Program-made: the position numbers and the translations under genes
Notes under the pieces: generated by a model
Told to the model about the DNA's origin: nothing
Database searches by the model: none
What the model saw: the letters and a program-made list of their open reading frames with translations, nothing else
Shown: positions 4,757 to 23,307 of the stretch, one piece after another
How the letters are laid out: each line of letters starts with the position of its first letter
How positions within the stretch are numbered: the stretch's first letter is position 1
From: an uncultured Flavobacteriaceae bacterium
GTDB taxonomy: Bacteria > Bacteroidota > Bacteroidia > Flavobacteriales > Flavobacteriaceae
Length of the DNA: 64,000 nucleotides
Reading direction: 5' to 3'
NCBI GenBank assembly: GCA_947504035.1
Contig: CANNGA010000002.1
Span: forward strand, 310,001-374,000

Positions 4757-5356
4757 TTGTTAGAGAAAAGACACCAACTTCCACAAAATCAGTGTACAGA
4801 TACCGATTATTTTATTTATTGTTTAGAAGCGGTTGATGCTATTGAAACACATACCGTTACCGACACACAAAAAAACCTAGAACAATTAACCCTAGAATAT
4901 GGCGTAGCTAGTATTTATAACACTTGTGACACCATTGAAGGTTTAGAAACGAGCTTAAATACATTAGTCTTAGACGATCATAATTTTACAAATTATGAAA
5001 TTATCTACATGATCATATCAGGAGAAGCTAATAGCATTTGTATCAATAATTATTACTACAGTTTTCAAGAACTAGCAGAATTATTTGAAGGCAAACTAGC
5101 AGGGAAAATTTTACATTTTTCGAATGCTAAAGTTTTAGATTTAGATGCAGAAGACGCACAATATTTTATAGATATCACTAATGCAAGGGCTGTCTCAGGC
5201 TACGGTTTCGCATATAACGGTGTGAGTAGTGCAAATTTAGATAAAGCATTCTTTAACTTATTTAAAGAAGATGGTGATATGTTAGCTGTTGTAGAAGCGT
5301 TGCATAAAAAATATTATAAGGCCTGTAAATTACTTGATTTTAGATTGTACTATTAA
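4757..5356 (+). CDS. DUF6642 family protein
   Basis: The protein has 199 residues. Features that match DUF6642 are the N-terminal FIYCLEAVDAIETHTVTD, the central YEIIYMIISGEANSICINN and FQELAELFEGKLAGKI, and the C-terminal CKLLDFRLYY. The family is common in Flavobacteriia and its function is unknown. A CHAT-like or Ca-free alpha/beta fold has been suggested for similar lengths, but I cannot support it here. There is no ATG before the conserved region; the likely start is TTG at 4757, preceded closely by an in-frame TAA at 4751. A -7-like box (TAAATTTG, near 4734) lies just upstream. The gene stands alone between repeat copies R1 and R2. Confidence 0.8.
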   Translation: MLEKRHQLPQNQCTDTDYFIYCLEAVDAIETHTVTDTQKNLEQLTLEYGVASIYNTCDTIEGLETSLNTLVLDDHNFTNYEIIYMIISGEANSICINNYYYSFQELAELFEGKLAGKILHFSNAKVLDLDAEDAQYFIDITNARAVSGYGFAYNGVSSANLDKAFFNLFKEDGDMLAVVEALHKKYYKACKLLDFRLYY

Positions 5357-5430
5357 GTCGAGTTCTAATGCCTGCACGCTAGCTTTCTTGATTTTAGCTT
5401 CAACCACTGGATAATCCAATATTAAAAGTG

Positions 5431-5516
5431 TACTGTAATGTTCTGCGTTATGTCACTTTGCTTGGGTGAGAAGCGAAGTTTTCTAACCCAATTTTCTTGG
5501 ATTTTTTTCTTTCTAC
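5431..5516 (+). repeat. solo 3' end of the island repeat
   Basis: This carries the right-arm module TACTGTAATGTTCTGCG followed by TTATGTCACTTTGCTTGG and the AAGCGAAGTTxTxTAACCCAATTTTCTTG tract. The same module lies at 18239-18310 in R4. It sits directly before R2, giving two right ends in tandem. Confidence 0.75.
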
Positions 5517-5558
5517 CTGAATTCGATCTAAGGATTCAGAAAAAAATATTAAGTATTT

Positions 5559-6003
5559 TTTTGTTTCTTTTTGTATCAAGACAAAAAGATATAGAACATT
5601 TGAAAGCTTTAAATAAATGCACAATTTGAGCAAGTGTATAAAATTTTATGCCTGTACAATGCGCTGCAAGCGGCTGAAAATTGAGTTTTAAAAAATTACT
5701 GCGATAGAATAATTAGTTACCAAAAAACAACAAAGCATTTGTGAGCGGCAATTTTAAATAACGGCTAATTACAGCTATACAGTTACGATGCCTCAATTAG
5801 CTTGATATAATTACTATCGATATAAGTCTGCGACATTATATTGTTCTGCGTTATGTAACTTTGCTTGGGAGGAAAAAGCTATTATAAATAACTATTCTTC
5901 TTTTTAGATTTTTTTCCTATCCCAAAAACTTCTTTAAAAATGTAATGGAATACTCTTTTTGCAACTAGGGCAGAGGAGAGGAGGCAAAATGTGTATGGAA
6001 TGG
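5559..6003 (+). repeat. island repeat R2
   Basis: In order it contains: a hairpin at 5567-5588 (CTTTTTGT / ATCAAG / ACAAAAAG); a C segment (GAGCAAGTGTATA); the left arm AAATAACGGCTAATTA near 5756; the module ACTATCGATATAAGTCTGCG; the right arm TTCTGCGTTATGTAACTTTG at 5844-5863; and the tail TTTCTTTAAAAATGTAATGG, ending in GTGTATGGAATGG. R2 and R3 share their inter-arm sequence and form one subfamily. All copies have the same orientation. Confidence 0.8.
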
Positions 6004-6125: not shown

Positions 6126-7913
6126 ATGGCATTAAAAAATAAAGGGAAATTAAGATGTATTGCTATACTTCAAAAAAATAAATATCTAAAAAAATTAGAT
6201 TTATTAATAAAAGATGTTGTTATAAATATAGGGTTAGAATACGTTAGTATCGCATATAATAAAAGGAGAAATTTAAATAACCAAAATGGTGTAGAGGAAA
6301 TTCAACTTAATGATATAATAATTGTTGAAGCAACTTTATTAAGTCCTAATTTATTTTATGAACTTGGGATAGCTCAAGCTAGTGGAAAACAAATAATCTA
6401 CCTAATTGATCAACATTCAATTGACATTCCGAATAATCTAAGAGCATATTCTGGTTTACCATACGATTATGAAAGAAAAGATTTTAAGGGATTAGATAAT
6501 AGATTAAAAAGGTTATTACTTCAATTGATTAAAGCCCCAAAGAAAAAGTCTTTGGTAGAAGTTTTTCCTACTACTGTTTTTAGACAACCACATGTGATTG
6601 ACTTAGAAAATCTTGACATGCGTACGTTTGAAAATATGTGTTATGAATTATTAGTGCAAATGGGTTACAGACAAGTTGAATGGGAAAAGTCTAATGATAA
6701 TCTAATTGATATGTTAGCTGTTTACCCAAAAACTGACCCTGATGGGTTTGAATATGGAGAACAATGGCTTGTCTCAATATCTCAAAATTTAAAAAACAGA
6801 AAAAGTATTATGATGTTGGAAGAAGATCCAGCATATTTTGTTGATAGAATTTTAAGAGATCGAAAAGAAAGTAATAGATCCCAGTTAAATGAGCATGCTA
6901 CATTTTTATTTATAACTAAAAATTCTACAACTAAAGGTGAAAATTTCATAAGGAGATTAGATGCTAATATTAGAAAAAGAAGATTTAGGTCTTATAATAA
7001 CATAAATATAAGATTTAGACACTGGTCCTTATCAAGGATAGTACAACTTCTTCAGGAATACCCTAGTATTGTGACTAAATATTTTTCAGAAGATTCAAGA
7101 GAGGGTTCTAAATATAGAAAGAACGTGGAAGAATTATATAAGGAAAATATTGCTATCACAGACGAATTACAGAAAGCAAAGGGAGAGTTAGAAAAAGAAA
7201 AGAAATTAAGATTTATAGCTGAAAGAGATGCTGCATGGAAAGATGTTGCCTTTAGAGCGGCACATAAATTAGGTAACCCAATTGATGCAATTGATACTTT
7301 TTTGCAAAGTTTAAAGAAAAGAATCAAAAATGATTGCAAAGATGCATTAGAAATAGCTAACGAAATAGACACATCGGTTGAAGATGCAAAATCAGTAATA
7401 GCTCAATTCAAATCACTAACTAAAGTATTAAATGTTAAAGTTTCGCCTATAGAAATCCTACCTATTTTAGAGCATTCAGCAATGCCATATAAGGAGAAAG
7501 GAATTGATGTAAATATTACTATACGTAAAAAATGTCCAAAGCTTAATGCTGATTCTGAAAGACTAACTGAATGTTTTCAAGAATTATTTGCTAATGCTTC
7601 AATGTGGTTTCATGAAGATGAAGAATTAAATAAAGTGAATATCAAAGTTATTCGCCCAACAAAAGCTAAACTACCAGAAAAGCTTGATAAAAATAACTCT
7701 TATTTAAAGATTACTTTTAGTGATAATGGAAAAGGCGTACCATTAAAACTTAAAGAAAAAATATTTTCTCCATTTATTAGTAAATCTACTCATGGAACTG
7801 GATTAGGTCTTTCATTAGTACAAAGCATAATAGAAAAACATGGAGGAATTATTTATGAAGATGGAATTCCTGCAAATGGAGCACAATTTCAAATATATTT
7901 ACCCATAGCTTAA
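6126..7913 (+). CDS. hybrid histidine kinase with NDT/TIR-like and Mrr-like N-terminal domains
   Basis: The protein has 595 residues and no membrane segment, so it is cytoplasmic. Residues about 8-135 resemble nucleoside 2-deoxyribosyltransferase/TIR-like Rossmann domains (IIIVEATLLSPNLFYELGIA, Glu79). Residues about 155-320 resemble an Mrr-type PD-(D/E)XK domain (FENMCYELLVQMGY, Asp195 in NLIDMLAV). The usual QxK strand reads WLVSISQ, so the catalytic Lys is absent and the domain may only bind. A coiled coil (335-370) precedes a HisKA domain with His380 (FRAAHKLGNPIDAI) and a HATPase_c domain: N490, DNGKG 533-537 and GTGLGLS 557-563. All kinase motifs are present. The response-regulator cyclase gene starts 14 bp downstream, so the two very likely form a cognate pair. 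The sensed ligand is unknown; a nucleotide metabolite or DNA is inferred from the fused domains. Confidence 0.85.
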   Translation: MALKNKGKLRCIAILQKNKYLKKLDLLIKDVVINIGLEYVSIAYNKRRNLNNQNGVEEIQLNDIIIVEATLLSPNLFYELGIAQASGKQIIYLIDQHSIDIPNNLRAYSGLPYDYERKDFKGLDNRLKRLLLQLIKAPKKKSLVEVFPTTVFRQPHVIDLENLDMRTFENMCYELLVQMGYRQVEWEKSNDNLIDMLAVYPKTDPDGFEYGEQWLVSISQNLKNRKSIMMLEEDPAYFVDRILRDRKESNRSQLNEHATFLFITKNSTTKGENFIRRLDANIRKRRFRSYNNINIRFRHWSLSRIVQLLQEYPSIVTKYFSEDSREGSKYRKNVEELYKENIAITDELQKAKGELEKEKKLRFIAERDAAWKDVAFRAAHKLGNPIDAIDTFLQSLKKRIKNDCKDALEIANEIDTSVEDAKSVIAQFKSLTKVLNVKVSPIEILPILEHSAMPYKEKGIDVNITIRKKCPKLNADSERLTECFQELFANASMWFHEDEELNKVNIKVIRPTKAKLPEKLDKNNSYLKITFSDNGKGVPLKLKEKIFSPFISKSTHGTGLGLSLVQSIIEKHGGIIYEDGIPANGAQFQIYLPIA

Positions 7914-7927
7914 TAAATTAGTATAGA

Positions 7928-9019
7928 ATGGAGAATTCAATTTTGATAGTAGATGATCAAGAAACCAATAGAAAAGCATATCGAATAACTATAGAAGATA
8001 GCGGGCTATTTCAATATATAGATATTGCTGGAAGTGAAGCTGAAGCAAGAGGAATGATTCTCAAAAATAATTATGACGTTATATTGACGGATATGATTAT
8101 GAATGAGGATGACGACGGAATAAAAGTTTTAAATATAGCAAAAGAAAAAGACCCATGGTGTATGGTTCTTGTAATAACAGCAAATGACAAAAAGTTACAG
8201 CGTTATAAAGCTTTTGACAAAGGAGCTTTTGATTGTATATCTAAAAGTGCGCCAGGTATTAAATCTTCTGATGAAATTATTGCTAAATGTAAAACAGCTC
8301 TTAATTTCCGAAATATGGCGTTAAACCAAATTGAGAAAGAGAAGAATTTAGATAAATTAAAAAGATACTTTGACCCTAATGTTTTTGAAAGTATTAGATC
8401 AAATCCAGATATTTTAATACCTACAAACAAAATAGTATCAATTGTTTTTTGGGATATTAGAGGTTTTTCTAAATTAAGTGAGACTTTGAAAGCTCATCCT
8501 GATTTAATTGCTGGTTTTTTAAAAGAATACTGTGAATTAGCAGCTAAATGTATTTTCGAAGAAAAAGGTGTTTTAGATAAGTTTATTGGGGATGGTGTTA
8601 TGGCACTTTTTGGGGCGCTTGAAACTGAATCAAATATGGATATTGAACATGCAACAAATGCAGCAAATGCAGCGATAAAATTACGTGAAGAATTTAATAG
8701 TATTCATAAGAAGTGGATGGATAAATGGTCTTTATACTCTCCGGAAAAAATAGATATTGGATTAGGTTGCGGAATACATACTGGGCAAGCAATTGTCGGT
8801 AATATAAATACTGAAATCCGAGATGATTTTACAGCTCTAGGTCCTACTGTTAATTTAGCAGCTAGAGTTGAAGGGAGATCTGCAAAGTCACAAATACTAA
8901 TATCAAGTACAACTGAGGTTAGAATTAAACAGAATTTTTCCACAAATAAGGTAGGTGTTATTGACGATATAAAGAATATTCCTGGAGAATATGCTGTTTA
9001 TGAATTATCAAAAAAATAG
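7928..9019 (+). CDS. response regulator with class III nucleotidyl cyclase output
   Basis: The protein has 363 residues. The receiver domain (1-125) has the acidic pair Asp9/Asp10, phospho-acceptor Asp55 (ILTDMIM), Thr84 and Lys106. After a helical linker, the class III cyclase domain (about 165-345) has metal-binding Asp176 (VFWDIRGFS) and Asp222 (DKFIGDGVMALFG), Lys218 in the adenine-reading position, the DDFTALG strand, and Asn309/Arg313 (NLAARVEG). All catalytic positions are present. The Lys and Asp/Thr pattern suits ATP and hence cAMP; other cyclic nucleotides cannot be excluded from sequence. Phosphorylation by the upstream kinase should control it. No cyclic-nucleotide effector gene was seen next door; the downstream reading is a broken unrelated gene. 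Confidence 0.88.
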   Translation: MENSILIVDDQETNRKAYRITIEDSGLFQYIDIAGSEAEARGMILKNNYDVILTDMIMNEDDDGIKVLNIAKEKDPWCMVLVITANDKKLQRYKAFDKGAFDCISKSAPGIKSSDEIIAKCKTALNFRNMALNQIEKEKNLDKLKRYFDPNVFESIRSNPDILIPTNKIVSIVFWDIRGFSKLSETLKAHPDLIAGFLKEYCELAAKCIFEEKGVLDKFIGDGVMALFGALETESNMDIEHATNAANAAIKLREEFNSIHKKWMDKWSLYSPEKIDIGLGCGIHTGQAIVGNINTEIRDDFTALGPTVNLAARVEGRSAKSQILISSTTEVRIKQNFSTNKVGVIDDIKNIPGEYAVYELSKK

Positions 9020-9047: not shown

Positions 9048-9415
9048 GAGTTTCTAAAATCAGAATTAAAAAGTTACGGTTTAAAATTAACTAACAAAAT
9101 CGATGGGGGAGAAGGAGTTGATTTTTTAATAAGAAACAATCAATTATATCTACACAACGTAGTATTAAAATTATAAAACAAGAATTAGGAGAACTAAAAG
9201 ATAACTTGTTTATCGCTTTAGTTTTAATCATAGAAAAACAACCAAGGGTTGTTTATTTCATTCCATCCAAAGACTTACAAGATTCCAACAACAATTTCTT
9301 TATTAGTAATGACGTGAGTTTGATGCCCAGTTTATCTAATTGGGAAATTAAAATATCAAGCAAATCCATATTGAAAGTTAGCTTCTTTGTGTATTTTACT
9401 AAAAATGTCTATTAG
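9048..9415 (+). pseudogene. broken copy of the 136-aa gene at 22115-22525
   Basis: From 9048 the DNA closely follows 22126 onward (GAGTTTCTAAAATCAGAATT in both). The first part reads FLKSELKSYGLKLTNKIDG in one frame and stops at about 9174. After a deletion of roughly 20-25 bp the match resumes in another frame (LGELKDNLFIALVLIIE, then NDVSLMPSLSNWEIKISS). Similarity ends near 9370 and the frame ends at a TAG at 9413. The XRE partner gene is missing; the copy starts 28 bp after the cyclase stop, at a sharp homology boundary. Confidence 0.85.
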
Positions 9416-9424
9416 ACATTTTCT
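9401..9424. terminator. hairpin after the broken gene
   Basis: The arms AAAATGTCTA and TAGACATTTT (10 bp, perfect, 1-nt centre) are followed by a short T-rich run. It could terminate the kinase-cyclase transcript. Confidence 0.5.
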
Positions 9425-9439
9425 TAACGCTAAATAGTC

Positions 9440-9519
9440 TAAAAAAATCTTGAGTATCTTTTTGTTTCTTTTTGTATCAAGACAAAAAGATATGCAAATT
9501 TTAAAAATGTTCAATTATA
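9440..9519 (+). repeat. island repeat R3, left part (split by the IS630 element)
   Basis: This contains the conserved hairpin at 9468-9489 and the flank GATATGCAAATTTTAAAAATG. It continues at 10642 beyond the insertion. R5 at 22781-22850 shows the uninterrupted form. Confidence 0.8.
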
Positions 9520-10590: not shown

Positions 10591-10641
10591 AAGATAAAGA
10601 TATCTATTTTATGGGAAAATTAAAAGTTAAAAAAGTATTAT

Positions 10642-11219
10642 AGTTCTGTATTTAACAAGTGTATAGAAATTTTAGAGCGTGGATTTGAGCTAGGAAAAAT
10701 TTTATACTCTTGTGGCAAGTTAGCGAGAATTGCCTAGAAAAAAAATTTGCGGAATGTTCATCGAATACGCGAATTTTAAACAAGAAGCAAAAGCTAGCTT
10801 TTTTTGGCGGTGGCAAGCGATGGATAATTGTGTTTAAAAAAATTACTGCGACAGCATAATTAGTTGCCAAAAAGCAATCGAGCGTTTGCGAGCGGCAATT
10901 TTACATAACGGCTAATTATAGCTACACAGTTATAAATATAACTACGAAGCCACAATTAGCTTGACATAATTACTATCGATATAAGTCTGCGACATTATAT
11001 CTTCAATTATGTCAAATAGCGCCCAAAAGCGCTATTTCGCTAATTGTTATGAAATGTACTATAATGTTCTGCGTTATGTAACTTTGCTTTGGTAAAAAGC
11101 TTTTTACCACTTAATTTTCTCTGATTTTTTTCTCTCCCAAAAGTTTCTTTAAAAATGTAATGGAATACTCTTTTTGCAGAAAGGGCAGAGGCGTGGAAGC
11201 AAAATGTGTATGAAATGGT
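10642..11219 (+). repeat. island repeat R3, right part
   Basis: This contains the C segment (AACAAGTGTATAGAAATTTT), GCGGTGGCAAGCGATGG, the left arm TTACATAACGG near 10898, the module ACTATCGATATAAGTCTGCG, an extra perfect hairpin at 11014-11037 (AAATAGCGC/GCGCTATTT), the right arm GCGTTATGTAAC at 11071-11082, and the GTGTATGAAATGG tail. The tail ends at the stop of the 64-residue minus-strand gene. The 579-bp interval carries no gene. Confidence 0.8.
11014..11037. other. 9-bp hairpin specific to repeat R3
   Basis: Arms AAATAGCGC and GCGCTATTT pair perfectly across a CCAAAA loop. A larger pair, GACATAATT near 10962 and AATTATGTC near 11005, surrounds part of the inter-arm region. R2 lacks this insertion. 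Confidence 0.6.
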
Positions 11220-11220
11220 T

Positions 11221-11415
11221 TTATTTCTTGCCTGTTGAATAATTTACCCTCTTTTTAAAATCAATAATCTCATCTTTTAATTTCTTATTAGCATTCTCGA
11301 TTAATTCATTCTGAAGTTTCATAACTCTCAATAAATCGTGGATTGCATTCAAATTGTCCAATTGAGTGTAAACAACCTGTTCTAAATCTGCTTTAGTATA
11401 TTTCGCTCTTGACAT
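11221..11415 (-). CDS. small coiled-coil protein, divergent from an XRE regulator
   Basis: The protein has 64 residues and is helical throughout, with a likely coiled coil (YTQLDNLNAIHDLLRVMKLQ, then a Lys/Asn-rich helix). Its paralog at 21532-21717 is about 80 percent identical by eye. Both copies are divergent from a short XRE regulator, across 137 and 194 bp. I know no named family. Possible roles are a regulator partner or a small toxin/antitoxin component; the conserved pairing is the only evidence. Confidence 0.75.
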   Translation of the reverse strand: MSRAKYTKADLEQVVYTQLDNLNAIHDLLRVMKLQNELIENANKKLKDEIIDFKKRVNYSTGKK

Positions 11416-11777: not shown

Positions 11778-13202
11778 ATGAGTAATGTTACGGGAATAAT
11801 TAAGTCCATTAGGGACATAATGAGAAAAGATGCTGGTGTAGATGGAGATGCGCAACGTATTTCACAAATGGTTTGGATGCTATTTATGAAGATTTTTGCG
11901 GATAAGGAAGAAGAATGGCAACATACTTTAGACAATTACGAAAGTCCTATTGTAGATAAATTTAAGTGGGATGCTTGGGCTGCCGATGATGAAGGCTTAA
12001 CAGGTGATAAATTAATGGAGTTTATCAATACCGAACTTTTTCCTGCATTAAAGGATATTGATACTTCTAAAACTGAGCAAGCAAAAATCATCAAAGCTGT
12101 TTTTGAAGATACTTATAATTACATGAAGAACGGAACACTATTCCGTCAAGTAATTAATGAGATAGATAAAATTGACTTTAACAGTAGTGAAGACCGACAC
12201 ACATTTAATGATATTTACGAAACGATTTTAAAAGAACTACAATCTGCTGGTTCTTCTGGTGAATATTATACACCAAGAGCAGTAACCCAGTTTATCGTAG
12301 ATATGGTCGACCCACAATTGGGAGAAAGTGTATTAGATCCTGCATGTGGTACTGGTGGTTTCTTAACCTGTTCTATTGACCATGTTCGTAAACAAGTTAA
12401 TAATCCTAAAGCGACACAAACTTTACAGAAGTCTATTAGAGGTGTAGAAAAAAAACCTTTACCTCATTTATTGTGTACTACCAATTTAATTTTATATGGT
12501 TTTGACCAACCAGCTGTTATTAGAGGAAATATGCTAACCAAATCCTACAGTGATTATGGAGCAAAAGATCAAGTAAATGTTGTATTATCTAATCCACCAT
12601 TTGGAGGAACAGAAGAGGACGGAACAGAAAAGAACTTTCCTAAAAAGTTTCAAACCAAAGAAACTGCTGATTTATTTTTAGCCCTTATCATTAAAGTTTT
12701 GAAAAAAAATGGACGTGCTGGTGTAGTATTACCTGACGGCACATTGTTTGGTGAAGGCGTAAAGACTAGAATTAAAGAAGAACTATTAACTAAATGTAAT
12801 TTACATACCATTATACGATTACCAAATGGTGTTTTTAATCCTTATACGGGAATTAAAACCAATTTATTGTTTTTTGAAAAAGGAACACCTACCAAAGAAA
12901 CATGGTATTATGAAATGCCTTATCCTGAAGGTATAAAAAGTTTTAATAAAGGAAGACCTATAAATATTAAAGATTTTGACATTTTAAAAGAATGGTGGAA
13001 AAATAGAGAAGAAAATGAATATGCCTGGAATGTTCCAGTTAATGAAATTATAGATTCTAATTTTAACTTAGATATTAAAAACCCACATGTTGTTGAAGCC
13101 GAAATTGTCTATTCTTCTGTTGAAATACTTGACAGATTAGATAAAGGAATTTCAAAGTCTAAAGAAATTCTTAACTCAATAAAAGAAATTATTAATGCAT
13201 AA
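11778..13202 (+). CDS. hsdM: type I restriction-modification methyltransferase subunit HsdM
   Basis: The protein has 474 residues. The N-terminal HsdM_N helices (1-125) precede an N6-adenine methyltransferase domain with SAM motif I (LDPACGTGGFL, near 190) and catalytic motif IV (NPPFGG, near 274). The TRAVTQFIVDM-type region (YYTPRAVTQFI) is typical. With HsdS it should methylate adenine in a bipartite target. The gene overlaps hsdS by 8 bp. The C-terminus is a helical segment that normally contacts HsdS. Confidence 0.93.
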   Translation: MSNVTGIIKSIRDIMRKDAGVDGDAQRISQMVWMLFMKIFADKEEEWQHTLDNYESPIVDKFKWDAWAADDEGLTGDKLMEFINTELFPALKDIDTSKTEQAKIIKAVFEDTYNYMKNGTLFRQVINEIDKIDFNSSEDRHTFNDIYETILKELQSAGSSGEYYTPRAVTQFIVDMVDPQLGESVLDPACGTGGFLTCSIDHVRKQVNNPKATQTLQKSIRGVEKKPLPHLLCTTNLILYGFDQPAVIRGNMLTKSYSDYGAKDQVNVVLSNPPFGGTEEDGTEKNFPKKFQTKETADLFLALIIKVLKKNGRAGVVLPDGTLFGEGVKTRIKEELLTKCNLHTIIRLPNGVFNPYTGIKTNLLFFEKGTPTKETWYYEMPYPEGIKSFNKGRPINIKDFDILKEWWKNREENEYAWNVPVNEIIDSNFNLDIKNPHVVEAEIVYSSVEILDRLDKGISKSKEILNSIKEIINA

Positions 13203-14961
13203 AATTGATATTAATAGAATTGCTTTTTTTGAAAATATTGGAGTTTATATTTCACTAATAAATCTTTTCTTATCAAAGACCAATAAATTGGAACCATTGG
13301 GTAACCATATAAAAATGGTTGGTGGTTTTGCTTTCAAATCTAAAGATTATAAAAACCAAGGTATTCCTGTAATTAGAATTTCTGATTTTCAAGATGAAAA
13401 AATACAACTTACTAAGGTTAGATATTATCAAGAAAATGAAAAGTTCGAAAAGTATGAGTTGCATGAAGGAGACATAATAATAGCAATGACTGGCGGTACA
13501 ATTGGAAAATTAGCAATTGTACAACCTAACTTAGGCAAACTCTATTTAAACCAGAGAGTTGGTAAATTTCAAGTCATAAATAAAGAAGAGTTTGACAAAG
13601 AATATGTTTATTGGATAGCTAGAGGAATACAAGATAAATTACAAAACATTGGTTATGGTGGAGCTCAACCAAATATTAGCAATTCGCAATTAGAAAAATT
13701 AAAATTCCCTTTTCCTGATAAGGAAACACAAAAAACAATTATTAGCTTTTTAAATGATTTAAAAAATGATTCAATAAAACCTGACAAGTATTTTGATTCA
13801 GAAACTGAGAAAGAAATACACAAAATTCAAAGTGTAAAAATTAAATCACTCGAATTAGATTATAATATTGAAGAGCAACTAACTTTTTTAACCAAACTCC
13901 GCCAATCCATTTTACAAGATGCAGTACAAGGAAAATTAACAAAAGAGTGGCGATCACAAAACCCCACTTTAAAACCTGCAAGTGAGCTTCTCGAAAAAAT
14001 AAAAGCAGAAAAAGAGCAACTCATCAAGGACAAGAAAATTAGAAAGGAAAAACCTTTACCACCAATCACAAAAGAAGAAATTCCTTTTGAAATCCCTGAG
14101 ACTTGGGAGTGGTGCAGAATGTTAGATGTTTCTGAAAAGCTTGGAGCTGGTAGCACTCCCAAAGGTGGTAATTCAGTCTATGTTACTAACGGAATTATGT
14201 TTTTTAGATCTCAAAACATATATAATGAAGGATTAAGATTAGATAATGTTGCATTGATTCCTAATGATATCCACGAAAGAATGAAAGGGACCAAAGTACT
14301 TTCAAAAGATATTTTACTTAATATAACCGGAGGTTCTATAGGCAGGAGTACTTTAATCTCTGATGATTTTGTTACAGCTAATGTTAGCCAACATGTTGCT
14401 ATAGTAAGAATGATAAATTTAGAAACTAGAAAATTTATTCACAACTTAATTATGTCTCCTTATTTTCAATCTAGGATAATGGATGTTCAAGTTGGAGTTT
14501 CAAGAGAAGGTTTAAGTATGACAAGCCTTAAGAGTTTACTTGTTCCATTTCCACCTATAGAAGAACAAAAAGTAATAGTCGAAAAAGTTAATCAACTTTT
14601 AGCTCATTGTGATGAACTAGAGCAAGAAATCAAAACAAGTAAAACCAATGCAGAAAAATTAATGCAATCGGTTTTAAGTGAGTTGTTAGGAGAAGAAAAC
14701 AATATATTAGTAAACAAACCAACTACAAAGAAGGAATTAAAAAAGCCCTCAAGAGAAATAAAATACAATAGTAAAACCTTGCTTATGGACTTAGTAAAAC
14801 TATTAAAAGAAAATGGAAAATTGCATGCAGAAGACCTTTGGAAAATGTCTAAATTCCCTAATGATATAGATGCCTTTTATGCTGAATTAAAAAAGCAAAT
14901 AGAAGAAGAAAAAGCCATTAAAGAAGTTACAAACGAAAAAGGGTATTTAGAACTAGCATGA
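13195..14961 (+). CDS. hsdS: type I specificity subunit HsdS
   Basis: The protein has 588 residues. Two target-recognition domains are present: TRD1 about 35-200 (GGFAFKSKDYKNQGIPVIRI) and TRD2 about 300-480 (PETWEWCRMLDVSEKLGAG, GVSREGLSMTSLKSL). Each is followed by a conserved helix (about 230-275 and 490-520). A C-terminal extension of about 70 residues (LVKLLKENGKLHAEDLWKMS) resembles a winged-helix tail found in some HsdS proteins. It recognises the DNA target for HsdM. The start overlaps hsdM and the stop overlaps the ATPase gene by 4 bp (ATGA). Confidence 0.92.
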   Translation: MHKIDINRIAFFENIGVYISLINLFLSKTNKLEPLGNHIKMVGGFAFKSKDYKNQGIPVIRISDFQDEKIQLTKVRYYQENEKFEKYELHEGDIIIAMTGGTIGKLAIVQPNLGKLYLNQRVGKFQVINKEEFDKEYVYWIARGIQDKLQNIGYGGAQPNISNSQLEKLKFPFPDKETQKTIISFLNDLKNDSIKPDKYFDSETEKEIHKIQSVKIKSLELDYNIEEQLTFLTKLRQSILQDAVQGKLTKEWRSQNPTLKPASELLEKIKAEKEQLIKDKKIRKEKPLPPITKEEIPFEIPETWEWCRMLDVSEKLGAGSTPKGGNSVYVTNGIMFFRSQNIYNEGLRLDNVALIPNDIHERMKGTKVLSKDILLNITGGSIGRSTLISDDFVTANVSQHVAIVRMINLETRKFIHNLIMSPYFQSRIMDVQVGVSREGLSMTSLKSLLVPFPPIEEQKVIVEKVNQLLAHCDELEQEIKTSKTNAEKLMQSVLSELLGEENNILVNKPTTKKELKKPSREIKYNSKTLLMDLVKLLKENGKLHAEDLWKMSKFPNDIDAFYAELKKQIEEEKAIKEVTNEKGYLELA

Positions 14962-16559
14962 GAATAGATAAAGTCTACATAGAAGAGTTTAAAAACCTTA
15001 AGGATTTCTCTATTGATCTTAATGAGGAATTTATGAGTACTGTATTTCTTGGTCAAAATGCAGCAGGTAAATCTAATTTGCTAGAAGCTCTAGTAATAAT
15101 ATTTAGAGACTTAGATTTAGAAGAAGAAACTATATTCAACTATAAAATTGAATATCAATGTAAAGACAATCTATTAAAAGTTGTAGGTGGTAAAAACACG
15201 AAAGGTAAATTTAAGTTTTATAGAGGTGTTAATTTAAAAAAATCAGTCGCTTATGACTTAAAACCAATTTCCAAGACATTAATAAAAAAGAATAAATCAG
15301 ATTACTTACCCAAATATGTGTTTTCATACTATTCAGGTATTAGTAATCGACTATTAGAACATTTTGACAAACATCAAAAGCGTTTTTATGATGAACTTAT
15401 AAAAGGTGTTGATGCACCTCCAAGACCATTATTTTATGCACGTCAAATACACAGTTATTTTGTATTAATGGCATTTTATGCGTTTTCAGATGAGAAAGCA
15501 AATAAATTTCTTAAAGAATTTTTGGGAATTGTTGGTTTAGAATCTGTATTGTTTGTTTTAAAAAAACCAGTTTGGGCTAGAAGTAAAACAGAAGCGCTAG
15601 ATTTTTGGAAAGCCAAAGGTGTAGTTCGTGAATTCTTAGATGAGTTGTTTGAATCTGCAATGGCACCTATTGTGCATGAAGATACCGTAAGGGAAGATTT
15701 TAGAAGAAGCCATAAGCAAGAACAATTATACTTATATATCTCAAATCAAGAAAAGTTAGAAAAAATTGCTAGTAAATATTTAACTAATGCTGAGTTTTTC
15801 AAGAGTTTAGAAAGCACATATATTTCTGATTTAATTCAAGAAGTTAGAGTAAAAGTAAAGAAGGAGAATGTACTTGGAGATATTACTTTTAAAGAGTTGT
15901 CAGAAGGAGAGCAACAATTACTTACTGTAATTGGATTATTGCGTTTCACTAAAGAAGAAGAATCCTTAATTCTCTTAGATGAGCCTGACACCCATTTGAA
16001 TCCTTTATGGAAATGGAAATACATGAATTTATTAGAAGAATATTCAGGGAAAGAAGAAACAAGTCAAATTTTAATGACAACACATGATCCATTGGTTATT
16101 GGCGGATTAACCAAAGAGCAAATAAGAATATTTCAAGCTGTTAAAAAAACAGACAAAGAACAAAAAGAGTATCAACATATAGAAGCATTTGAACCAGATT
16201 TTGATCCCAGAGGATTAGGAGTTGCTGGAATATTAACTAGTGATTTTTTTAATTTACCAAGTACTTTGGATGAAGACACTTTAGAGGATTTGAATGAACG
16301 TAATCGGTTAGTTGCTAAAAAGGATATAAAAGGGCTAACAAATAGGGAAAATGAACAATTAAATGAGCTTTTTATAAAATTAAGCGAGCTAGGGATAAAT
16401 ACAACTGATCGTGATCCTATGTACCAAAAATTTTTAACTGCATTAAGTCAAAGAGAGGAATTTAAAGTTGAAAAAATAACTAAAGAACTCAGAGAAAAAC
16501 AAAATCAGATTGCCTTAGAACTTCTAGATGAATTGTTTAACGAAAATGATGAATCATGA
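14958..16559 (+). CDS. PtuA-like AAA/ABC-type ATPase (Septu-like), fused into the hsd operon
   Basis: The protein has 533 residues. The N-terminal strand (MRIDKVYIEEFKNLKDF) and Walker A (LGQNAAGKSNLLEAL, near 33-47) are followed by an insert, then an ABC signature-like motif (LSEGEQQLLTVIG, near 315), Walker B (SLILLDEPDTHLNP, near 335) and an H-loop region (TTHDPLV). This is the SMC/RecF-like ATPase group that includes PtuA, RloA and OLD without a Toprim domain. An HNH gene follows with a 4-bp overlap, the order of Septu (PtuA-PtuB). It probably gates the nuclease by ATP state. Confidence 0.85.
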   Translation: MRIDKVYIEEFKNLKDFSIDLNEEFMSTVFLGQNAAGKSNLLEALVIIFRDLDLEEETIFNYKIEYQCKDNLLKVVGGKNTKGKFKFYRGVNLKKSVAYDLKPISKTLIKKNKSDYLPKYVFSYYSGISNRLLEHFDKHQKRFYDELIKGVDAPPRPLFYARQIHSYFVLMAFYAFSDEKANKFLKEFLGIVGLESVLFVLKKPVWARSKTEALDFWKAKGVVREFLDELFESAMAPIVHEDTVREDFRRSHKQEQLYLYISNQEKLEKIASKYLTNAEFFKSLESTYISDLIQEVRVKVKKENVLGDITFKELSEGEQQLLTVIGLLRFTKEEESLILLDEPDTHLNPLWKWKYMNLLEEYSGKEETSQILMTTHDPLVIGGLTKEQIRIFQAVKKTDKEQKEYQHIEAFEPDFDPRGLGVAGILTSDFFNLPSTLDEDTLEDLNERNRLVAKKDIKGLTNRENEQLNELFIKLSELGINTTDRDPMYQKFLTALSQREEFKVEKITKELREKQNQIALELLDELFNENDES

Positions 16560-17362
16560 GGTATATTGATTTAGAAAATAACCCACCTTCAGATAATTGG
16601 ATCGCTAGAGCTGATAACTTAACTCAGCAGCTAATAAATGCTAATACCGAAGAAGAGCGAAACCAAATAATTGATAATAATCAAAATATGTGGGGCGAAC
16701 TAAAAGATCATTTAAGAGGTTTGAGTAATAATAAATGTTGGTATTCCGAATCTAAGAATGATAGTGCACATTGTCATATTGATCATTTTAGACCAAAGAA
16801 AAAAGCAGTAGATGAAAATGGAAATGATAGGGGAGGGTATTGGTGGCTTGCATTTGATTGGTCAAACTATCGTTATTCAGCGCCAGTAGAGAATGTTAGA
16901 AAGAGGGATTATTTTCATGTTAATTCTAATAAAGCAAATTCACCAAACGATGCAATTGAAGATGAAGACATAAGATTTTTAGATCCAACCGATATTGAAG
17001 ACCCAAATAAACTTGCTTATACAAATGAAGGTTTAGTAACTCCTAAATCCATAGTTCAAACCAATCGGAATTATATCCAAGCAGAATACACCATTCGTAG
17101 GATGAACTTAAACAAGGAAGAAATGAAGGATTCACGAAAAGCAAAATACCATAAAACGAACCTTCTAATTAGACAGACTAATCGTTTAATGAATCAACAA
17201 GGTAATAATTTTAGTCCAGCTCGTAGACAAAAAATAAAAGCAAAGCTCAAAGAATTATTAAATTTAGCTTCTTCATCTTCGGAATATTCTTCAGCGGTAA
17301 AGTATTGCTTGAAGAGTTCAGGATATGATTGGGCTGATAATATTGTACAGCGAGCCGCTTAA
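16556..17362 (+). CDS. HNH endonuclease, PtuB/TIGR02646-like
   Basis: The protein has 268 residues. The HNH core is CHIDHFRPKKKA (about 73-84) followed by WWLAFDWSNYRYSAPVEN. TIGR02646/PtuB members usually have two CxxC zinc knuckles; here the first is CWYSES (one Cys) and the second reads SAPVENVRKRD, with no Cys. The catalytic HxxH-F-RPK is kept, so zinc stabilisation looks lost but catalysis may not be. It should cut nucleic acid under control of the ATPase upstream. No hsdR gene follows: the next 1.1 kb is repeat. Confidence 0.82.
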   Translation: MRYIDLENNPPSDNWIARADNLTQQLINANTEEERNQIIDNNQNMWGELKDHLRGLSNNKCWYSESKNDSAHCHIDHFRPKKKAVDENGNDRGGYWWLAFDWSNYRYSAPVENVRKRDYFHVNSNKANSPNDAIEDEDIRFLDPTDIEDPNKLAYTNEGLVTPKSIVQTNRNYIQAEYTIRRMNLNKEEMKDSRKAKYHKTNLLIRQTNRLMNQQGNNFSPARRQKIKAKLKELLNLASSSSEYSSAVKYCLKSSGYDWADNIVQRAA

Positions 17363-18473
17363 ATTCTTGCCGTAAATAAGTGTTTTATAATATTATGTAA
17401 AATAGACCTTAGTTTTTACCCAGATGTAGCGTTGGCAAAACGGCCTCAGAAAACTTTGGCTAAAACACGAGATATAATGATTGCTCCAGTGGAGGAATTA
17501 TTATAGCTGCGAGATGATGCGGCTGGACAATGATAGTAACCTAGATTAAACAAACGTTGTAAATCGCCAACACGCCAGCTCGCTTACAAAATCAAAAGTC
17601 TACTAGATTTTCAATTTTATGCCGTCTAAAATATAGCGATTGAGCCGTACATTGTTTCCAAAGTTTTATGCAGCCTTGATTTTTTTTGTTTCTTTTTTTA
17701 TCAAGAAAAAAAGATAATAATAAACGATTAATAGTTACGATTTTCAAATTTAGTTCCAAATGTTCTTAAACAGTTCAAATAAAAAAAAGTTGAATTATAG
17801 CACAATTAGAGCAAGTGTATAGAAATTATCTCGCAGAGTAATTTTATACTCTTGCGGAACGCTTTACGAGAATGTCGTAGAAAAAAATATTGCAGGATTA
17901 TTATCGAATACGCGAATTTTGAAACAATCTAAAAGGTTAGCTTTTTTATGGCGGTGGCTATGCGGTTGGAAATTGTGTTTAGAAATAAACGCCAGAAGCG
18001 TTTAATTTATAAAAAGCAATCGAGCGCATAGGCAGCGGCAATTTTACATAGCGACTAATTATAGTACAAACAGCAGAATGTTTATTATTTAGTACTAAAC
18101 CCAAGAGCCTAATGTTTAATGACCCAAGTACTACAGTTTATTGCGTGTACAAGGCTTTCTGGGATATTTTACATAATATTACATTATAGCTATCAAATGG
18201 CATAACAACTAGATATAATCGAAATATGATATTTGTACTATAATGTTCTGCGTTATGTAACTTTGCTTTGGTGAAAAGCGAAGTTCTTTAACCCAATTTT
18301 CTTGATTTTTTTTCTTTCTAAAAGTTTCTTTAAAAATGTAATGGAATACTCTTTGCCCGAAGCGACGATAGGAGTGAAGTGGGAATGTGTATGGAATGGG
18401 AATGATTTATGGAATATTCTGTTGTTAAGCGTTAAATTATTTTATCTTTAGCAGTTCAAGTTTTAGAGTTAAA
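17363..18473. other. gene-free spacer filled by island repeat R4
   Basis: This 1.1-kb spacer has no plausible gene. Almost all of it is R4 (17390-18404). Bases 17466-17620 are unlike the other copies, include scattered stops in all frames, and may be a decayed insertion. A -7-like TATCTTTA at 18443-18450 probably drives the helicase gene. Confidence 0.75.
17390..18404 (+). repeat. island repeat R4
   Basis: It opens with ATATTATGTAAAATA (17390-17404), then an A segment (TTTTTACCCAGATGxAGCG, GGCAAAACGGCCTCAG) and a B segment (GATTGAGCCGTACATTG, GCAGCCTTGATTTTTTT). The hairpin is at 17692-17713 (CTTTTTTT/AAAAAAAG). The C segment, the left arm TTACATAGCGACTAATTA (18045-18062), TATTTTACATAATAT (18165-18179, exact inverse of the opening) and the right arm GCGTTATGTAAC (18250-18261) follow. 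The tail ends GTGTATGGAATGGG. R4 and R5 share about 90 percent by eye in the inter-arm part. Confidence 0.8.
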
Positions 18474-21531: not shown

Positions 21532-21717
21532 CTATTTACCATAATTAACCCGTTTCTTAAAATCTATGACTTCATCTTTTAATTTCTTATTGGCATTTTC
21601 AATTAATTCATTTTGAAGTTTCATAATGCGTAATAAATCGTGAATAGCATTTAGATTATCCAGTTGTGTATATACGATTCTCTCTAAGTCTGCTTTGGTG
21701 TATTTAGGATATGGCAT
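21532..21717 (-). CDS. small coiled-coil protein, paralog of the 64-aa gene at 11221
   Basis: The protein has 61 residues (MPYPKYTKADLERIVYTQL). It differs from the first copy by a few conservative changes (V to I, E to R) and the two ends. It is again divergent from a short XRE gene. The near-identical sequence beside unlike regulators points to duplication of a functional unit within the island. Confidence 0.75.
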   Translation of the reverse strand: MPYPKYTKADLERIVYTQLDNLNAIHDLLRIMKLQNELIENANKKLKDEVIDFKKRVNYGK

Positions 21718-21911
21718 AAAATTTGAAATAAAGTTATTAACAATAAAAATTTAATTAAAAATTACATTTATATAATTTTAACTTACATAATGTTAATTCA
21801 AACTTATAAATTAAATTTTAAAAACACAAGTTTAGATTACTAAAAGTTAACTTAAACTTATGTTTTAGTAAGTATGTGTTATATCTTTAAAGTAGAATAC
21901 ATCAAATAGTT
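21718..21911. promoter_or_regulatory. divergent promoter region with AAGTTAACTT palindromes
   Basis: This contains the palindrome AAGTTAACTT (21844-21853), TTAAC-(9 nt)-GTTAA (near 21779-21797) and several AACTTA direct repeats. They lie between the small gene and the XRE gene, and are candidate operators of the XRE protein. A -7-like TATCTTTA lies near 21882. Confidence 0.45.
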
Positions 21912-22118
21912 ATGGCAATAGAAAGGATAAATAGAATAAAAGAAGTATTAGTAATTCAAGGAAAATCGCAGGTTTGGCTTGCGGAAGAGTTGGGAAAAAG
22001 TACAACTTCTGTAACGGCTTTTTGCAATAATAAATCACAACCACATTTAAAAGATTTAAAAAAAATAGCTGAAATCTTGGATGTGGATATTAGAGAGTTA
22101 TTAGTTTCTACAAAATGA
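21912..22118 (+). CDS. XRE-family transcriptional regulator
   Basis: The protein has 68 residues. One HTH_3 fold (IKEVLVIQGKSQVWLAEELG, KSTTSVTAFCNNKSQP) covers nearly the entire protein. The ATG of the next gene overlaps its stop (ATGA), so the two are coupled. It is not close to the XRE at 11553, although both face the same small protein. Confidence 0.88.
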   Translation: MAIERINRIKEVLVIQGKSQVWLAEELGKSTTSVTAFCNNKSQPHLKDLKKIAEILDVDIRELLVSTK

Positions 22119-22525
22119 TTGCCTTAGAGTTTCTAAAATCAGAATTAAAAAGTCATAACTTAGAATTAACCGCTAAAACCGATGGGAGGGAAGGGGCTGA
22201 TTTTTTTATAGAAAACTACCAAATATACTTACAACCACTAGATTTAGATATTGTAAAACAAAGTATCAAAATAACAAAACAGGATTTAGGAGAATTAAAC
22301 GATAACTTGTTTATCGCTTTAATTTTAATCATAGAGCAACAACCAAGAGTTGTTTATTTAATTCCACCCACACAATTACAGGATTCTGATAATAATTTCT
22401 TCGTAGATAATGAAGTGAGTTTAATGCCCAGTTTATCCAATTGGGAAATTAAAATATCAAGCAAAACTATAGGAGAGCTAGAAAAATACGCTTTAAATAA
22501 TATGATTGACAAATTAAAAGTTTAG
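22115..22525 (+). CDS. hypothetical protein, 136 aa, coupled to an XRE gene
   Basis: I do not recognise this family. The protein is soluble and mixed alpha/beta: FLKSELKSHNLELTAKTDG, NLFIALILIIEQQPRVVYLI, and NEVSLMPSLSNWEIKISS. A broken copy lies at 9048-9415. Small proteins coupled to XRE regulators often act as toxins, antitoxins or regulator accessories; nothing in the sequence decides between these. It is the last gene before the repeat that closes the island. Confidence 0.75.
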   Translation: MIALEFLKSELKSHNLELTAKTDGREGADFFIENYQIYLQPLDLDIVKQSIKITKQDLGELNDNLFIALILIIEQQPRVVYLIPPTQLQDSDNNFFVDNEVSLMPSLSNWEIKISSKTIGELEKYALNNMIDKLKV

Positions 22526-22532
22526 TTTTTTA

Positions 22533-23307
22533 ATATTATGTAAAATAGAACGTGCGTTTTTACCCAGATGAAGCGATGGCAAAACGGCCTCAGAAAACTT
22601 TGGTAAAACAATAGGTGAAAGAGCGTATATATTTTAGAGGGCTAGTAATACATATTCTTAATAATAACAAGGTTTAAAGCTAGTTCAAAGCAATCTTAAG
22701 CTGTTAGATTGTTTTCTAAAATATAGCGATTGAGCCGTACATTGTTTCTAAAGTTTTGTGCAGCCTTGATTTTTTTGTTTCTTTTTTTATCAAGAAAAAA
22801 AGATATGCAGACCCTAAAAATGTTTAATTATAGTTCTATAATGAACAAGTGTATAGAAATTTTAGAGCGTGGATTTGAGCCAGGGAAAATTTTATACTCT
22901 TGTGGCAAGTTTACGAGAATGTCGTAGAAAAAAATCTTGCAGGATTTTCCTCGAATACGAGAATTATAATTAATAGCAAAAGGTTTAGCTTTTTTTGGTG
23001 TGGCCAAGCGGTGGCAAATTGAGTTTAAAAATAAATGCCATAAAGCATTTAATTTTTTAAAAACAATAAAGCGGTTGGGCGCGGCAATTTTACATAGCGT
23101 CTAATTATAGTACAAACAGCAGAATGTTTCTTGTTTAGTACTAAAGCCAAGAGCCGAATGTTTAATGACCCCAGTACTACAGTTTATTGTGTGTTCAAAA
23201 CTTTCTGGGATATTTTACATAATATGGAATTATAGCTTACAAATGGCATAACTACAAGATATAATCGAAATATGATATTTGTACTATAATTTATATTATG
23301 TAAAATA
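22533..23307 (+). repeat. island repeat R5
   Basis: It starts and ends with direct copies of ATATTATGTAAAATA (22533-22547, 23293-23307) and holds the exact inverse at 23211-23225. Between are the A and B segments, hairpin 22781-22802, the C segment (AACAAGTGTATAGAAATTTT) and the left arm TTACATAGCGTCTAATTA. Where R4 has GTTCTGCGTTATGTAAC after GTACTATAAT, R5 has TTATATTATGTAAAATAG. The two copies thus switch sequence around a shared TTATGTAA core. Confidence 0.8.

Follow-up and report, generated by a model that had tools for sequence, protein, structure and literature searches.

A soluble kinase with NDT/DNPH1-like and degenerate Mrr-like domains, paired with a receiver-cyclase in a flavobacterial accessory region and in distant phyla

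What does a histidine kinase sense when its N-terminus resembles enzymes of nucleotide metabolism and DNA restriction, and does the nucleotide cyclase encoded beside it serve defence? The question is raised by two adjoining genes in a stretch of 64,000 nucleotides (hereafter, the window) from an uncultured Flavobacteriaceae bacterium, covering positions 310001-374000 of contig CANNGA010000002.1 in a genome of 4.23 Mb. The genes lie 14 bp apart on the forward strand; one encodes a kinase with a nucleoside deoxyribosyltransferase (NDT)-like and an Mrr-like domain, and the other a response regulator with a class III cyclase output (Table 1). We observed the anatomy and residues of this module, the pairing of its genes, its recurrence across phyla, and the occurrence of one kinase core and regulator with sensors of two different kinds. 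The kinase-cyclase module is real and recurrent, has an unusual sensor, and need not be a defence system. On balance, we favour a two-component system that is cytosolic, probably senses a nucleotide, and has a cyclic AMP (cAMP) output; its window copy lies in a defence-rich accessory region.

The signalling residues were compared in 12 kinases, the window kinase and 11 relatives, and in 15 regulators; the split regulator of L146 and the contig-cut regulator of L147 were omitted. His380, Asn490, Asp533, and Gly535 were invariant in the 12 kinases, and the receiver residues Asp10, Asp55, Thr84, and Lys106 were kept in all 15 regulators. The sequences show the residue and gene-order marks of a two-component pair: the kinase histidine, the N and G boxes, the receiver aspartate with its switch residues, and an adjoining gene. 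In Pfam, the window kinase matched HATPase_c at 54 bits and HisKA at 14.4 bits (below the cut-off), and the regulator matched Response_reg at 63 bits and Guanylate_cyc at 58.5 bits. A full-length model of the kinase (pLDDT 73.6, pTM 0.36) was submitted to Foldseek, and all 50 matches listed were kinase-core structures. No hydrophobic transmembrane-like segment was found in residues 1-330 of the window kinase. Judged by residue conservation, the signalling output of the pair is under strong constraint. A preliminary description of the locus had reported complete kinase, receiver, and cyclase residues at these coordinates, and the residues checked agree with it. The domain anatomy that it gave (NDT-like, Mrr-like, and kinase core, followed by a receiver-cyclase) was recovered by Pfam, family profiles, and hhalign, with the fused N-terminus in the sensor position of the kinase.

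For the first N-terminal domain, the window kinase alone matched Nuc_deoxyrib_tr very weakly (12 bits, E 0.23), which is insufficient by itself. Single-sequence scores being weak, the domain calls became firm through the addition of relatives. The same profile was matched by 9 of the 13 aligned family members at E <= 0.01, a profile of the family N-terminus matched DNPH1/Rcl chains from E 1.2e-6, and hhalign aligned the NDT-like domain of the family with seven stand-alone NDT-like proteins at 99.8% probability. Residues 1-326 were modelled with AlphaFold2 (mean pLDDT 75.5, pTM 0.51), and the model returned DNPH1/Rcl in 49 of the 50 Foldseek matches listed, the remaining one being a TIR-STING fibre. 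Profile, hhalign, and Foldseek on the predicted model thus agree on an NDT/DNPH1 fold, and they place the N-terminus of the window kinase with the nucleoside deoxyribosyltransferases, nearest to DNPH1/Rcl. The window copy shares the D...YELG pattern of these enzymes; unlike them, the domain forms the N-terminal part of a kinase. Asp63 and Glu79, which we take to be the NDT active-site pattern, are both present in the window copy, and across the 12 kinases they were found in 10 and 8, respectively. NDT catalysis is thus, by this residue count, not what the kinase family as a whole conserves.

The TIR matches were fewer. TIR_2 and CAP12 TIR each matched 1 of the 13 family members (best E 0.0029), and the PADLOC "TIR effector" model matched 5 of the 12 kinases, the window kinase not among them. 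A passage of PMC11204291 gives an active-site tyrosine near the catalytic glutamate as common to Thoeris ThsB2, NDTs, and DNPH1, which points to the closeness of the NDT and TIR folds.

The second N-terminal domain matched Mrr_cat (Pfam cut-off 21) at 18.6 bits in the whole window kinase, at 21.2 bits as an isolated stretch, and in 4 of the 13 aligned family members. An hhalign comparison with two real Mrr proteins gave 97.85% for an alignment of 141 columns that takes in the C-terminal KYFS end, and a control with a deliberate mismatch gave 0.2%. The domain is alignable with Mrr-type (type IV) restriction endonucleases; unlike them, it has lost E-x-K in 12 of 12 kinases, where the ECK of real Mrr is replaced by Ser in all and then by Gly, Ser, His, or Cys. 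Asp195 was present in all 12, and the endonuclease motif D...(E/Q)xK is absent from the window family. The lack of the catalytic lysine, as previously described for the window copy, extends to the whole set, and the glutamate is gone as well. An alignment of 10 of the 12 kinases showed 27 invariant columns in this well-conserved domain, which also has an invariant DPDG motif; the NDT-like part is more variable across the family. From these residues, the Mrr-like domain is retained as a catalytically dead non-nuclease, and nuclease activity is not expected. Of the folds proposed in the preliminary description, the NDT part of its NDT/TIR-like label stands (profiles, hhalign, and Foldseek to DNPH1/Rcl), the TIR part fits less well, and Mrr was recovered by profile, not by structure search.

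The recurrence of the module was investigated with each of its parts. The window N-terminus had no match in the genome collection; besides the window itself, it gave short NDT-like or Mrr-like matches only, both in 296 genomes of the phylum (21 genomes including its own) and in 349 genomes of the family (9 including its own). The cyclase part matched 150 of 395 phylum genomes, and none of the 18 cyclase places fetched from them had an adjacent NDT-Mrr kinase. With the kinase core, matches were obtained in 133 of 395 class genomes; among eight places fetched, a receiver-cyclase of the same kind was present only at G809, where a related kinase core (38% identity) is followed by the receiver-cyclase (44% and 52%). 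A two-row alignment of the dimerisation helices resulted in 17 loci in the genome collection, counting the G809 locus (L160); as the search used two 8-residue patterns, this number is a lower bound. The loci span at least nine phyla, with hosts in the Bacteroidota, Ignavibacteriales, Nitrospirae, Planctomycetes, Armatimonadetes, Acidobacteria, Coatesbacteria, Desantisbacteria, and Magnetococcales. A one-off fusion is ruled out by these 17 related loci.

The NDT-Mrr-kinase was found in a single frame at 11 of the 17 loci. Two loci had broken frames (L153 and L161), the contig of L150 begins inside the kinase, and three loci of Bacteroidota (L156, L160, and L162) keep the kinase core and cyclase with a sensor of six transmembrane-like segments instead of NDT-Mrr. 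The same domain order recurs in 11 kinases of other loci at 31-45% identity to the window kinase, which argues for an architecture beyond chance. A receiver gene lies directly downstream of the kinase at 16 of the 17 loci, in addition to the window; the distance between the two genes, measured for 15 pairs, ranges from -11 to +14 bp. The receiver-cyclase is one frame at 14 of the 17; it is split at L146, stops at the contig end at L147, and is missing at L161. NDT-Mrr joined to other outputs was not found in 98 + 4 genomes of two classes, where NDT-like parts only were detected. In a tree, the 15 regulators stood apart from five other receiver-cyclases with support of 100/99; the five outgroup proteins all match Response_reg, one of them (L085) below the cut-off. 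The three members with membrane sensors formed one group (100/100) and joined the window at 81/89, a placement that hints, without strong support, at sensor replacement within the Bacteroidota.

Among the papers listed by searches of open PubMed Central, we found no description of the NDT-Mrr kinase and receiver-cyclase pair, which is not proof of absence. Parts of PMC7159879 describe conflict systems that contain cyclic nucleotide monophosphate (cNMP) cyclases and domains of the Mrr-like and TIR-family types, and report that no histidine kinase domains occur among the vWA-associated effectors of that study. HATPase and REC are named in a figure legend of PMC13092281.

In the cyclase, Asp176, Asp222, Thr302, Asn309, and Arg313 were present in 15 of 15 regulators and Lys218 in 14, with Asn in L159. 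We take Asp176 and Asp222 to be the metal residues, Lys218 and Thr302 those of the base pocket, and Asn309 and Arg313 those of the transition state. The residue set of class III adenylyl cyclases (two Asp, Asn, Arg, and a pocket Lys with Thr/Asp) is thus complete. The closest solved cyclases were P. aeruginosa CyaB (137 bits) and the adenylate cyclases 1wc0/1wc1 (128 bits), the latter presumably Spirulina CyaC; 1wc0/1wc1 share the Lys and Thr segments of the base pocket, KF-GD and FTA-GP, with the window cyclase. Its pocket residues resemble those of solved adenylyl cyclases, and cAMP would be the most likely product. Cyanobacterial CyaC is an example of a two-component system with an adenylyl cyclase output. 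As in such receiver-cyclases, a receiver would control a class III cyclase in the window system, with the Lys/Thr pocket of 1wc0/1wc1; unlike them, the window system has a separate kinase with a soluble NDT-Mrr sensor, and its regulators form the distinct tree group described above.

Pycsar (PycC with PycTM or PycTIR) also uses a class III cyclase, and the PADLOC PycC model matched the window cyclase part at 75 bits. A passage of PMC11224242 gives specificity residues for three Pycsar clades (Y50/D94/R97, F100/R142/Q144, and F60/K104/F109). Metal Asp numbers for mapping accompany F100/R142/Q144 in that passage, the other two sets being placeable by assumed offsets only; at the same offsets from the metal Asp, the window has F174/K218/I220 in place of F100/R142/Q144, so this set does not match. 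Unlike Pycsar, the window pair has a phosphorelay input and no linked effector, and for lack of the latter Pycsar membership was not accepted. The host genome has eight cNMP-binding matches, none on the contig of the window.

Table 1. Coordinates of the kinase-regulator pair, its domains, and the repeated blocks in the window.
Feature	Position	Strand	Basis
Soluble sensor histidine kinase, 595 aa	6126..7913	+	ORF (open reading frame), Pfam, family alignment
NDT/DNPH1-like domain, aa 8-138; Asp63 and Glu79 present	6147..6539	+	profiles, Foldseek, hhalign, residue check
Mrr-like domain, aa 155-322; Ser217-x-Ser219 in place of E-x-K; invariant DPDG, aa 204-207	6588..7091	+	alignment, hhalign
Long helix/coiled coil and DHp helices, aa 334-433	7125..7424	+	alignment, predicted model
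H-box AAHKLGNPIDAI with His380	His codon 7263-7265	+	alignment
ATP-binding catalytic domain, aa 440-595; Asn490, Asp533-Asn-Gly, GTGLGL	7443..7910	+	Pfam, alignment, Foldseek
Response regulator with class III nucleotide cyclase output, 363 aa	7928..9019	+	ORF, Pfam, alignment
Receiver domain, aa 1-134; Asp10, Asp55, Thr84, Lys106	7928..8329	+	Pfam, alignment
Class III cyclase domain, aa 166-363; Asp176, Asp222, Lys218, Thr302, Asn309, Arg313	8423..9016	+	Pfam, alignment
Repeated intergenic blocks	5418-6003, 9048-9515, 10637-11403, 17412-18399, 21541-23290		

The accessory region that holds the window pair is situated upstream of gcvT (24040) and contains transposase-like genes (which we take to be IS630), hsdM, hsdS, PtuA, PtuB, and a helicase gene; its left border was not found. 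With type I restriction-modification (RM) genes and Septu PtuA/PtuB, the region is the defence-type island that had been proposed for this copy. Septu PtuA/PtuB follow hsdM and hsdS at 11778-17362, where the ORF lists show no intervening hsdR, and a DUF6642 protein (271 bits) is encoded upstream of the pair at 4757-5356. Downstream of the pair are a degraded gene fragment and, on the opposite strand, insertion sequence (IS) genes. The fragment, at 9048-9370 directly after the cyclase gene, is a copy of the gene at 22115-22525 (22127-22471), 77% identical and with interrupted frames. Repeated intergenic blocks (42-215 bp, 60-98% identity) separate the gene cassettes of the island and flank the pair, an arrangement suggestive of cassette exchange through recombination between the blocks.

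A search of the other 11 genomes of the genus at E <= 1e-20 gave no match to the window kinase. Upstream of gcvT in nine genus genomes, G728 carries the segment 17626-23245 of the window at 96% DNA identity, about 10 kb from gcvT, and the kinase-regulator pair was not found in that region; in G734 a single island gene matched, at 80%, and the remaining island genes were unmatched in the nine. The pair has a G+C of 0.287 and a G+C at third codon positions (GC3) of 0.163, compared with a GC3 of 0.287-0.339 in four flanking genes. Because of the absence from genus mates, the accessory setting, and the flanking repeats, the window copy was probably acquired recently. In phages, no match for the window N-terminus was found, and L152 had one short partial match; plasmids gave partial matches only, with no record covering 80% of the query. 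Viral contigs gave none for the kinase or regulator alignment, and the regulator sequence matched three membrane cyclases.

No gene was common to the neighbourhoods of the 17 loci among their 139 neighbours, and no linked transmembrane or TIR effector was found, either for the window pair or as a shared neighbour. A sample of 45 neighbours from 15 of the loci was submitted to PADLOC and Pfam. In Pfam, the best 25 of 43 families were largely housekeeping (Lon, HisF, IPP transferase, ABC, and Clp). Defence-type genes were found at 3 of the 15 loci (5 of the 45 proteins): Pycsar at L162, AbiEi/AbiEii downstream at L148, and a TIR-like protein at L155. These five proteins accounted for 53 of 61 PADLOC families, three of the 61 not being among the matches listed; the mad3, mad8, BrxL, DolB, and C3a214 matches include ABC, Lon, and amylase-like proteins. 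As a control, we used 39 neighbours of 15 other cyclase loci (45 picked, 6 dropped as kinase genes), of which two were defence-type proteins, both PycTM, along with single SspA and DndA matches. Defence-type genes are slightly commoner near the relatives than in the control, in numbers too few to tell, and since the control is not defence-free, it leaves the defence question unsettled. The preliminary description had placed the pair in a defence-type island, with its reading to be given up if homologs lay in core, non-island contexts with known metabolic roles or if the N-terminal domains failed to match the folds proposed. Core, non-island contexts were largely what the survey returned, with no homolog of known role. 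Together with the missing effector and the adenylyl-cyclase-like pocket, these contexts do not support defence as a family trait, nor is a defence neighbourhood the general rule. Defence linkage is not established for the window family, and a defence reading is a less likely one.

According to the reading that we favour, the NDT/DNPH1-like domain and the catalytically dead Mrr-like one form the sensor, and a long helix connects them with the kinase core. The cue would most likely be a nucleotide or a nucleotide-derived metabolite bound in the NDT pocket, and the Mrr-like domain may add a nucleic-acid or protein contact. Upon binding, the kinase would autophosphorylate His380, and the phosphate would pass to Asp55 of the regulator encoded by the next gene. 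The phosphorylated receiver would activate its fused cyclase, most likely making cAMP for host cAMP-binding proteins encoded elsewhere.

Several points weigh against this reading. Glu79 is missing in 4 of the 12 kinases and Asp63 in 2, so the NDT pocket may not bind the same ligand across the family, or any. The Mrr-like assignment derives from profile comparison with just two Mrr proteins and from a model of pLDDT 75; a sequence search of solved structures with the Mrr-like profile found no solved Mrr or nuclease, and the Foldseek matches listed for residues 1-326 fit the first domain only, leaving the Mrr fold unconfirmed by structure search. With a pTM of 0.36, the full-length model does not give the packing of the domains. 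Adenine specificity is suggested by Lys218 and Thr302, and a passage of PMC11224242 places a pocket lysine also in a clade D Pycsar cyclase. The spread of the family is patchy, which is as compatible with a conflict gene as with a regulator. At L162:4002-8868, a Pycsar pair (PycC, 646 bits; PycTM, 92 bits) lies directly upstream, on the same strand, of the membrane-sensor kinase and receiver-cyclase; its PycTM adjoins its own PycC, and the C-terminal part of that PycC also matches CD-NTase models. Additionally, a PycTM gene lies directly downstream of a receiver-cyclase at L078:8887-10559 and L079:9271-10910, two Flavobacteriaceae control loci outside the window family (66 and 56 bits in Pfam). 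They may form a Pycsar-like unit under two-component control, separate from the window family; since a Pycsar-like output seems to be controlled by a receiver there, the defence idea is less remote.

Among the alternatives, a general regulator of DNA damage or nucleotide stress is unlikely; in this case the dead Mrr domain would be the true sensor, reading modified bases or DNA ends, with the NDT part structural. The DPDG motif and the 27 invariant columns of the Mrr-like domain, beside a more variable NDT part, favour this reading, but they could just as well be conserved because the domain packs against the kinase. A phage-defence alarm, in which an unusual nucleotide or DNA ends raised by infection would act through the kinase and a cyclic nucleotide to cause arrest by an unlinked effector with Pycsar-like logic, is similarly unlikely. 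It draws on the type I RM and Septu genes near the window copy, on the neighbours of L162, L148, and L155, on the TIR-effector matches of five kinases, and on the PycTM genes of the two control loci. However, the 139 neighbours share no family, the pair has no linked effector, defence-type genes occur at just 3 of 15 loci (5/45 proteins against 2/39 in the control), and no full carriage was found in the phages, plasmids, or viral contigs searched. We consider quite doubtful a broader version, a self-contained alarm spanning phyla, in which the dead Mrr domain and the DNPH1-like pocket would read DNA and the deoxynucleoside monophosphate pool, for example phage-made modified nucleotides, and trigger a cyclic-nucleotide pulse through the phosphorelay. 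Here, a common messenger would carry an alarm of infection or genome stress without a dedicated effector.

Rather improbable is an active N-glycosidase, whose turnover of product or substrate, beyond mere binding, would drive the kinase. Asp63 and Glu79 are kept in the window and DNPH1 is the best fold match, but Glu79 is absent in four members that otherwise keep the system, and the MPF and RADD motifs of stand-alone relatives were not seen, by eye, in the window protein. We regard as very improbable that the pair is a passenger with no present role in the window genome, as its absence from the other genus genomes and its low GC3 might suggest; both frames are open, and the residues checked are kept.

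Two enzyme folds, one familiar from nucleotide metabolism and one from DNA restriction, have been recruited jointly to the sensor position of a kinase whose partner, in widely separated phyla, is a cyclase. The existence of versions with a membrane sensor on this core and cyclase gives a clean way of asking what NDT-Mrr reads, since the output is the same and the input differs. If nucleotide sensing is true, the module would directly link the state of nucleotides or DNA to bacterial cyclic-nucleotide signalling.

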